From the NCBI GenBank assembly GCA_028279315.1, contig JANQNZ010000113.1, forward strand, positions 1 through 33,665: DNA of 33,665 nucleotides, given 5' to 3'. Each line of letters starts with the position of its first letter. The stretch's first letter is position 1. Under the pieces are notes generated by a model, which was not told the origin of the DNA, ran no database searches, and was given only the letters and a program-made list of their open reading frames with translations. The translations under genes were made by a program, and so were the position numbers. Source of the DNA: Rhodophyticola sp. (GTDB taxonomy: Bacteria; Pseudomonadota; Alphaproteobacteria; Rhodobacterales; Rhodobacteraceae). This document shows, one piece after another, positions 11,019 through 12,913 of the stretch.

Positions 11019-11306
11019 TCAGGCAATAATGCCGAGAATGTCGCTTTCCTTCATGATCAGCAGCTCTTTGCCATCCACGGTGACCTCGGTGCCCGACCAT
11101 TTGCCGAACAGGATCTTATCACCGGCTTTGACATCCATGGCGATCCGGTCGCCATCGTCATCTTTGGCGCCTGCGCCAACGGCGACAACCAGGCCCTCGG
11201 CCGGCTTTTCCTTGGCGCTGTCGGGGATGATCAGCCCGCCTGCGGTTTTCTCGTCGCTCTCGACGCGTTCGACCAAGACACGGTCATGCAACGGTGTGAA
11301 AGCCAT
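11019..11306 (-). CDS. groS: Co-chaperonin GroES (10 kDa)
   Basis: ORF trimmed to [38 protein letters not shown]...SDILGIIA (95 aa). Confidence 0.98.
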
Positions 11307-11344
11307 GTTGCGACCTCTCCTTCGGTTTGTGTTTCTCCCAAGTG

Positions 11345-11371
11345 TTAGCACTCGTCTCTCTTGAGTGCTAA
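11345..11371. promoter_or_regulatory. CIRCE operator (HrcA binding site) of groESL
   Basis: TTAGCACTC-gtctctctt-GAGTGCTAA, exact match to the CIRCE consensus with N9 spacer, in the groES leader. Confidence 0.97.
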
Positions 11372-11378
11372 CGGCGGT

Positions 11379-11407
11379 GAGATAGGGAAGGCGGGGCCTT
11401 AAGTCAA
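11379..11407 (-). promoter_or_regulatory. Predicted housekeeping-sigma promoter of groESL
   Basis: Minus strand TTGACT-N17-TATCTC, with the CIRCE site 7 bp downstream of the -10. Confidence 0.75.
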
Positions 11408-11490
11408 CCGACGAAACCCGGAAAACCCCGACCATTCGACATGCGCCCCGGCAGACCCTGAAATCTGGGGCCGCCGGGGCGGGGTTTGCT

Positions 11491-11670
11491 TCACCGCCCG
11501 CCGGTTCGTCCGGGAAAGCGCGGCGGCCGTCCGCCGCTTGGGCGGGAGGGGCCATGGGGCAGCGCGTTTGGCGGCCGCGCCTGGCGGGCGTTGACTTTCC
11601 GGGGCACGCCGCGGGACGTGCGTGTTTGGCCGGGCGCCTTCGGGCGCCGGGGTTTCGATGATTTGGGCAT
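11491..11670 (-). CDS. Small basic Pro/Arg/Gly-rich hypothetical protein (59 aa)
   Basis: [59 protein letters not shown]; upstream aaagagg at SD distance; downstream of the mini-ORF leader on the same strand. Low-complexity GC-rich ORF, so uncertain. Confidence 0.45.
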
Positions 11671-11750
11671 GAGCGCCTCTTTGATCTGAATGGAGGTTTG
11701 GCCCGCACGCAAATCCGCACGGGGCCTCGGGCCACCCGATCACTCGGGTG

Positions 11751-11768
11751 TCAGAGAGGGTTGTCCAT
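11751..11768 (-). CDS. Leader mini-ORF 2: MDNPL-stop
   Basis: AAGGAG-N10-ATGGACAACCCTCTCTGA on minus strand; duplicate of mini-ORF 1. Confidence 0.5.
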   Translation of the reverse strand: MDNPL

Positions 11769-11828
11769 GTTCAGGGCACTCCTTGTCAGAGGGTCCGCCA
11801 TTCCGTGGCGGTTAGGGGCTGTCGGGGA

Positions 11829-11846
11829 TCAGATTTGGTTGTCCAT
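11829..11846 (-). CDS. Leader mini-ORF 1: MDNQI-stop
   Basis: GAGGAG-N10-ATGGACAACCAAATCTGA on minus strand, close to the predicted transcription start. Confidence 0.5.
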   Translation of the reverse strand: MDNQI

Positions 11847-11875
11847 GGTCAGCGCACTCCTCTAAAGGTGCGCGC

Positions 11876-11904
11876 ACTCTACCCAGGCCCCCGCCCCAAG
11901 TCAA
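11876..11904 (-). promoter_or_regulatory. Predicted promoter of the mini-ORF leader transcript
   Basis: Minus strand TTGACT-N17-TAGAGT; same -35 and spacer as the groESL promoter. Confidence 0.55.
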
Positions 11905-11924
11905 AACGCCTCAGGCCCGCGGGG

Positions 11925-11953
11925 GTGACAGGGGGAAACACCAGCCCTATAAG
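11925..11953 (+). promoter_or_regulatory. Predicted promoter of the pyrophosphatase gene
   Basis: GTGACA-N17-TATAAG upstream of the 11975 start. Confidence 0.55.
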
Positions 11954-11974
11954 GCCCGCGACCTCTGGACAGCA

Positions 11975-12913
11975 ATGATGGACGCCCCCATGACAACCCT
12001 CGTTTTCGGCCATAAATCGCCTGACACCGACTCGACCGGCTCGCCGCTGATCTGGGCCTGGTACTTAAGTGAGATCAAAGGCACCGAGGCTGAGGCGGTG
12101 TTGTTGGGTGAGCCCAATACCGAGGCCGCGTTTATGCTGGAGAAATGGGACCTCGACAAACCGCGCATCATCGAGGGCGTGGCAGCGGATCAGCCCGTGG
12201 TCATTGTCGACACCAACAACCCCGCCGAGCTGCCGGATGGGATCAATGACGCGGATATCCAGGCCATCATCGACCATCACAAGCTGGTCGGCGGGCTGGA
12301 GACCAAAGGCCCAATTGATATCCGGATCGAACCGCTCGCCTGCACCGCCACGATCATGCGCAAGATGATCGGCGCGGATTTGGCCAAGGCGCCCGAGGCG
12401 GTGAAAGGCGCGATGCTGTCCTGTATCCTGAGCGATACCCTGGAGTTCCGGTCGCCGACCACCACCGAGGAAGACAAGGCGGTGGCCGAGGAGTTGGCGG
12501 CGGATTTGGGCGTCGATATCCCGTCTTACGCGGCGGAGATGTTCGCGGCGAAATCCGATGTCTCGGCGTTTTCGGATTCCGAGCTTCTGCGGATGGATTC
12601 CAAGGAATATGAGGTGGGCGGCAAAAGCTTCCGGGTGTCGGTGCTGGAGACAACTTCGCCCGAAACGGTTCTGGCCCGCAAAGCCAGCCTGATGGAGACG
12701 ATGCCCACGGTGGCCGTGGAAGATGGCGTTGATCAGGTGCTCCTTTTCATCGTCGATATCCTGAACGAGGAATCGACCATGCTGATCCCGAATGAACTGA
12801 CCAAGCAGGTGGCGGAGAAAAGCTTCTCCACGGTCTGCGGGGACGGGGACACGGTGGTTTTGCCCGGCGTGGTCAGCCGGAAGAAGCAGATCATTCCGAA
12901 CCTGGCGGTTTGA
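11975..12913 (+). CDS. ppaC: Manganese-dependent inorganic pyrophosphatase (family II, DHH/DHHA2)
   Basis: TTLVFGHKSPDTDSTGSPLIWAWYL, VVIVDTNNPAEL, IIDHHKLVGGLET (DHH), C-terminal GVVSRKKQIIPNL. True start may be 11990. Confidence 0.93.
   Translation: MMDAPMTTLVFGHKSPDTDSTGSPLIWAWYLSEIKGTEAEAVLLGEPNTEAAFMLEKWDLDKPRIIEGVAADQPVVIVDTNNPAELPDGINDADIQAIIDHHKLVGGLETKGPIDIRIEPLACTATIMRKMIGADLAKAPEAVKGAMLSCILSDTLEFRSPTTTEEDKAVAEELAADLGVDIPSYAAEMFAAKSDVSAFSDSELLRMDSKEYEVGGKSFRVSVLETTSPETVLARKASLMETMPTVAVEDGVDQVLLFIVDILNEESTMLIPNELTKQVAEKSFSTVCGDGDTVVLPGVVSRKKQIIPNLAV

Follow-up and report, generated by a model that had tools for sequence, protein, structure and literature searches.

Tandem five-codon open reading frames in a conserved leader ahead of a small basic protein gene beside ppaC in Rhodobacteraceae

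The window, which is the whole stretch of 33,665 nucleotides of Rhodophyticola sp. DNA analyzed here, comes from a genome assembly that is 89% complete and consists of 357 contigs. The gene order at the locus under study is ppaC, encoding a DHH/DHHA2 pyrophosphatase, on the plus strand, then the element described in this work on the minus strand, and then groES-groEL, also on the minus strand, with the groES start at 11306. The features of the element, in the direction of transcription, are as follows.

11876..11904, minus strand: promoter TTGACT-N17-TAGAGT, the sole promoter-like site in 11300-12000
11829..11862, minus strand: module 1, with the SD GAGGAG (11862-11857), a 10-nt spacer and mini-ORF 1, ATGGACAACCAAATCTGA; layout conserved in 19 loci
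11795..11811, minus strand: H1, hairpin CCGCCA-cggaa-TGGCGG in linker 1; linker-1 stems are stronger than chance
11751..11784, minus strand: module 2, with the SD AAGGAG (11784-11779), a 10-nt spacer and mini-ORF 2, ATGGACAACCCTCTCTGA; conserved across loci
11733..11750, minus strand: H2, hairpin CACCCGA-gtga-TCGGGTG directly after the mini-ORF 2 stop, at +19 from the mini-ORF 2 AUG
11491..11670, minus strand: gene for the small basic protein of 59 aa (MPKSSK...), with homologues at 19 loci
11633..11648, minus strand: H3, a hairpin within the small gene, GGCGCC-cgaa-GGCGCC, with its 5' arm at +23 from the AUG

Module 1 reads GAGGAGTGCGCTGACC-ATGGACAACCAAATCTGA, and its ORF at 11846-11829 encodes the peptide MDNQI; module 2 reads AAGGAGTGCCCTGAAC-ATGGACAACCCTCTCTGA, and its ORF at 11768-11751 encodes MDNPL. 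When a degenerate 26-mer of the module was searched in the window with up to three mismatches, these two sites were the only matches, and the expectation from shuffled sequence was 0. Transcription is predicted to start ~7 nt past the promoter and thus ~6 nt before SD1, and the small gene has a weak SD of its own (AGAGG, 11680-11676). Most of what a sequence-only reading of this DNA had described was found on the minus strand as it had been claimed: twin SD-ATG-five-codon modules offset by 78 nt with 3 mismatches in the first 26 nt, a TTGACT-N17-TAGAGT promoter whose RNA would begin a few nucleotides before SD1, hairpins at 11811-11795 and 11750-11733, and a 59-aa basic ORF at 11670-11491, which proved to be a member of a real gene family. 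Its description of the modules as duplicated stands for their likeness, which at 82% identity lies at the high end among the loci, and falls for a recent tandem duplication. Over 19 loci, modules of the same locus are 61% identical and modules 1 and 2 of different loci are 60% identical; because same-locus modules are no more alike than cross-locus ones, both are kept to a common consensus. A two-codon frame, GTG-CCC-TGA, inside the SD-ATG spacer was also considered and was dropped, its GTG being conserved in only about half. A CIRCE-type inverted repeat, TTAGCACTC-N9-GAGTGCTAA (window 11345-11371, minus strand), lies between a TTGACT promoter and groES, which suggests that groES-groEL is under separate control of the HrcA type and that the small-gene transcript need not enter this operon.

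The element was found beside ppaC at 19 Rhodobacteraceae loci, in 18 of the 298 sampled genera and in Rhodobacterales bacterium HKCCE2091; the sample comprised 298 Rhodobacteraceae genomes, one per genus, and the number of carriers is a lower bound, divergent copies such as that of G080 having escaped the profile search. The common layout is a promoter, an SD-ATG-five codons-stop module, ~80 nt, a second such module, another ~80 nt and the small basic ORF. A nucleotide BLAST search of the leader against relatives returned mostly chance matches, and seemingly family-wide matches to TGATCCCCGACAGCCCC were rejected as unrelated sequence. One match, L005 (G028), revealed a homologous locus, in which two SD-ATG modules 97 nt apart precede another small basic ORF, unlike that of the window; here too the element and ppaC point away from each other. 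More copies were located by searching for ppaC and inspecting its upstream side, and the carrier set was completed by a small-protein search, a sequence model of the promoter and module 1, and an open-pattern search. In the 298 genomes, the pattern RRGGAGTGCCCTGAMMATGGAC with 2 mismatches gave 15 matches, most of them the same element, and the open pattern AGGAG-N10-ATGGAC-N9-TGA (~1.1 Gb searched) gave 13 matches, all of them at the element; the reversed control gave 0 in both cases. Weak RNA-model matches were inspected and set aside, being mostly ordinary gene starts. The upstream regions of 117 ppaC genes contained no copies beyond the 6 already known carriers among them, a class-wide protein search found only the window's own genome, a plasmid search with the G110 protein found no match, and neither the window nor any of 15 carrier loci matched Rfam 15 at the gathering score.

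The ppaC gene is adjacent to the element in all 19 loci, and in 18 of them the two are divergently oriented; at the remaining locus, G315, which has a single aberrant module, the element lies ~1 kb upstream of ppaC on the same strand. On a tree of PpaC, the carrier label requires 7 changes, compared with 16 when labels are shuffled, and all-carrier groups of 8 rows (support 97/72) and of 4 rows (100/100) were recovered. Together with the fixed genomic position, this distribution of the label points to an old element that has been lost many times. When relatives were inspected for mini-ORFs that are missing or broken in frame, most were found to lack the mini-ORFs and the small gene together. 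An intact small gene always comes with at least one mini-ORF, intact mini-ORFs are in every copy followed by the same small-protein gene, and the copy in G176 has decayed. This decayed copy (L188, from ~position 1500, beside ppaC) retains the promoter and the post-stop hairpin but has lost the small gene; where a mini-ORF would be it reads ACGGACACGCACGCCTTAA, the start codon being replaced by ACG.

One regularity among the loci is the length of the mini-ORFs. Exactly five codons were found in 31 of the 35 mini-ORFs of 18 loci, whereas 2000 shuffles gave a mean of 0.87 and a maximum of 5, and frames +1 and +2 have no stop at the five-codon position. These 35 modules start with ATG (33) or GTG (2) and end in TGA (27), TAA (6) or TAG (1). 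The SD, the start codon, codon 2 and the stop have a high information content, whereas codons 3-5 carry next to none beyond an excess of A in codon 3 and a C preceding the stop; the second residue is Asp in 33 of 37 modules. Since the identity of the stop varies and a GTG start is allowed, it is the translation signals rather than the letters that are conserved, and on this comparative evidence the mini-ORFs are under selection as ORFs. The peptide itself appears to be largely irrelevant, with the conserved Asp2 as a feature that could mean a slight peptide role. Exceptions to the common form exist: of the two frames in G080 one has five codons (MDQRA) and the other 13, G315 has a single module of eight codons, and one longer mini-ORF is present in each of G028, G234 and G080. 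In L170 (G189), the stop of mini-ORF 2 is lost and the frame reads into the small gene, which is either a real fusion or an assembly error. The exceptions in G315, G189, G028, G234 and G080 speak against a strict need for two frames, and across the loci compared two five-codon frames are not strictly required.

These properties place the element among leaders with upstream ORFs. It has SD-bearing short ORFs upstream of a gene, in a fixed promoter-uORFs-gene order in 19 loci, and the ORFs are conserved across relatives with synonymous changes at start and stop. Amino-acid attenuators of the trp or his type are a poor match, as no regulatory codon run was found and codons 3-5 vary freely. Arrest-peptide leaders of the SecM, TnaC or Apd type match no better, with only Met-Asp conserved, and five residues hardly reach into the ribosome exit tunnel. 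The scan of 11300-12000 revealed no intrinsic-terminator-like site, which argues against an intrinsic attenuator. Other short leader ORFs were seen in the course of this work. Single SD-ATG mini-ORFs from ~position 1500 of L189 (G192; MDQRGF-stop) and L193 (G007; MDKRHR-stop) precede an apparent short-chain dehydrogenase gene, perhaps a second gene with this kind of leader. In L199 (G082), from ~position 1500, an apparent ABC exporter gene is preceded by a leader ORF of 10 codons (MYRGIWNIHA-stop) that has a strong SD and is a candidate drug-responsive leader.

The surroundings of the mini-ORFs are also conserved, to different degrees. A TTG-type -35 with a 16-18-nt spacer is located upstream in 19 of 19 loci, and the distance from the -10 to SD1 is 12-16 nt (21 in G080). 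In 15 of 17 loci H2 begins 0-2 nt past the mini-ORF 2 stop, where 6.6 loci were expected and none of 400 shuffles did as well, and the 5' arm of H3 lies at +19 to +23 of the small ORF in 16 of 18 loci, compared with 1.8 expected; the arms of both hairpins change on both sides between loci. Linker 1 (11828-11785 in the window) is C-rich and G-poor, with a C>G bias of 0.154 against 0.00 in the background, present in 15 of 16 loci. It is partly structured: its stems are stronger than chance, with 13 of 16 loci against 6.9 expected, but have no fixed place, and H1 is missing in two loci. Because the loci are related, counts based on shuffles overstate their independence; H3 survives this consideration, and H1 and the composition bias are weaker. 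The position-specific tests are strong, whereas the folding energy of the whole segment is only slightly low (mean z -0.2 to -0.7), a weak signal. A pairing between H2 and H3 was considered and dropped, the arms having no consistent match by eye, and the leader revealed no two hairpins that would exclude each other. In the bare leader, SD3 is predicted to be more open than SD1 and SD2, with a mean unpaired value of 0.64.

The small ORF downstream is, by its pattern of substitution, a real gene under coding selection. Over the last 14 codons of ten members, pairwise differences comprise 339 synonymous and 100 nonsynonymous changes, and third codon positions account for 411 changes in the same alignment against 96 and 91 at the other two. 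Its homologues are 54-65 aa long (77 in G279, in which the usual stop is missing) with pI of 10.7-12, and K, R, P and G abound in the family. The C-terminus is conserved, one variant of it being ...LPGKSRGR. Within the genomes searched, the gene is specific to Rhodobacteraceae. The protein had no match in Pfam, NCBIfam, PHROGs or PDB, and none of 18 members matched DUF1127 in Pfam at E 0.01. AlphaFold2 gave no fold for 18 sequences (pTM 0.16), and the protein is probably disordered. It may possibly bind ribosomes or RNA. The segment GRPPRFPGR resembles proline-rich ribosome-binding antimicrobial peptides, a possible lead, for which a profile search of PDB sequences gave no match. Mini-ORF 2 and the small ORF are 67-155 nt apart, with no frame relation and no overlap. 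The upper end of this range belongs to L144 (G205), where a ~30-nt unit (GACTTTGCGCGGGCCGTGCCGCGTGGACCC) is repeated ~3 times between mini-ORF 2 and the small gene and the linker is 155 nt long, compared with 67-98 nt elsewhere.

Our preferred reading, in which we place middling confidence, is that the element acts in cis as a leader and that expression of the small protein would be set by how ribosomes initiate and terminate on two uORFs, whatever peptide these encode. Comparison between loci establishes the promoter, the SDs, the starts, the stops, the length, H2, H3, the small gene and the ppaC adjacency, and it strongly supports a regulatory role of the uORFs, whose actual translation we infer. 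We likewise infer the sign of regulation, the Rho step, the signal and the role of Asp2. Nascent RNA would present SD1 almost at its 5' end. Under normal growth, ribosomes would initiate, finish within five codons and depart, thereby exposing the C-rich linker to Rho or an RNase, and little full-length message would result. Rho-binding RNA is C-rich and G-poor, and C-richness alone is weak evidence for Rho. If initiation or the first elongation steps became slow, as with antibiotics or few free ribosomes, ribosomes would stay on the AUGs, shield the leader and not disturb H2, which lies just past their leading edge, so that the small gene would be expressed; the two copies of the module could sharpen this response. 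Because SD3 is not predicted to be hidden, control of transcription or of RNA stability is favored over occlusion of the small-gene start.

The fixed length of the mini-ORFs may have a geometric explanation. The front edge of a ribosome held at a start codon is at +16 to +18, as determined by ribosome profiling (PMC12121999). Five codons plus a stop extend to +18, and therefore the mini-ORF equals the cover of an initiating ribosome, with H2 and H3 starting just beyond it. The key events would be a ribosome starting at the AUG and finishing at a stop one ribosome footprint downstream. A ribosome that has reached the stop would cover ~12 nt more and would have to open H2. Such a leader would tell start-held from terminating ribosomes while being blind to the peptide. 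A bolder reading, which we advance tentatively, as a possibility and not as a likelihood, is a sensor of footprint length: a strong start and a stop one footprint away, backed by structure downstream, would report whether a single ribosome is at the start or at the stop, independently of peptide and codons, and would thereby govern a small protein, new to science, that binds ribosomes or RNA.

The sequence-only reading, whose interpretation is partly supported, had offered a translation-sensing leader, a ribosome-loading decoy and an sRNA; the conservation of start, stop and length favors the leader, and the other two are not favored. That the stop is kept while its identity changes among TGA, TAA and TAG argues against a pure decoy or sRNA, neither of which needs it. 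A related proposal, which we regard as rather doubtful, is a leader in which the mini-ORFs recruit ribosomes to the 5' end, shield the RNA from endonucleases and aid translation of the small ORF, with no sensing involved. The strong SDs a few nucleotides from the predicted 5' end and the starts ~80 nt apart would suit it, and a two-codon mini-ORF ahead of txe has been reported to raise expression, possibly by mRNA protection (PMC8708949). However, simple loading requires neither an exact five-codon stop, nor a hairpin abutting that stop, nor two copies, and the distance to the small ORF, given that it neither overlaps mini-ORF 2 nor shares a frame relation with it, is long for re-initiation.

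We consider it unlikely that ribosomes on mini-ORF 2 act as a translational switch, refolding the RNA around H2 and the small-gene start with no premature end of transcription. The positions of H2 directly after stop 2 and of H3 just inside the small gene, as well as the precedents of toiL and mgtQ, are in line with such a switch, but in the bare leader SD3 is predicted to be largely free of pairing, H2 showed no alternative pairing with the small-gene start that is conserved, and module 1 and the C-rich linker would be left unexplained. Very unlikely, in our judgment, is an RNA that acts in trans or as a decoy, titrating ribosomes or anti-SD-type sRNAs or starving peptidyl-tRNA hydrolase, with the small ORF as a passenger; repeated strong SD-AUG modules of minigene-like length would be expected of it, yet the modules never occur apart from the small ORF, which evolves under coding selection, and there would be no need for codons to be free while ORF length is fixed. 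To a chance likeness without function we assign almost no probability: although only ~6% of the sampled genera carry the element, its conservation is far above shuffles and reversed controls and it occupies a single genomic place, so that conservation already refutes chance.

The preferred reading, regulation of the small gene by initiation and termination on the mini-ORFs, can also be viewed against what is known of uORF switches. The best-known bacterial ones read specific codons or the nascent peptide. In the element, the start, stop, length and flanking hairpins are kept and the peptide is not, twice over, which is the expected look of a pure sensor of initiation and termination. The comparison suggests that tandem, fixed-length, peptide-independent uORFs are new, and the idea is directly testable with antibiotics that arrest ribosomes at the start codon. 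The small, very basic and probably disordered protein represents a new family, and the logic of the leader suggests a link to translation stress. No description of the element was found in the literature searched, which covers few of the subscription journals.

The closest precedent is duf1127-1 of S. meliloti, where a small arginine-rich gene is off while the uORF is translated and on when initiation is impaired, and where a C-rich element, a proposed discontinuous rut site, is thought to bind Rho (PMC12218461). The two systems share an alphaproteobacterial host, a uORF near the 5' end and a small arginine-rich product; in duf1127-1, translating the uORF decides whether RNA polymerase gets as far as the gene, as is proposed for the element. 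They differ in that duf1127-1 has one 29-codon uORF with C-rich codons as the signal, whereas the element has two five-codon uORFs, and in that the locus and the bacterial family are other ones and the small product here is not a DUF1127 protein. On this precedent, attenuation under normal translation and expression under initiation stress was taken as the likeliest logic. In E. coli, toiL, located ahead of topAI, senses ribosomes held at the start codon by tetracycline or retapamulin, with Rho acting downstream (PMC12121999). It is a single uORF that frees the ribosome-binding site of an unrelated gene, whereas no hidden site is predicted in the element. Tandem short leader ORFs are also found in Salmonella, where mgtM and mgtP lie in one leader (PMC3641672), and mgtQ, of 8 aa, is likewise very short with a strong SD and Asp2, which together with Glu5 appears to destabilize ribosomes (PMC8092293). 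However, mgtM, mgtP and mgtQ act through their particular codons or residues and through alternative stem-loops, while codons 3-5 of the element are free, and the mgt leaders belong to other genes in another branch of the phylum. The two-codon minigene of axe-txe (PMC8708949) resembles the element in being an ultra-short translated frame, as the mini-ORFs are presumed to be, that acts in cis on a downstream gene. It is one frame in a toxin-antitoxin operon, for which frame and distance to txe matter, and unlike the element it has neither a fixed five-codon length nor a tandem copy. Although no homology to the DUF1127 or toiL leaders was seen, the element may, by analogy, work like the leader ORFs of duf1127-1, toiL and mgt.
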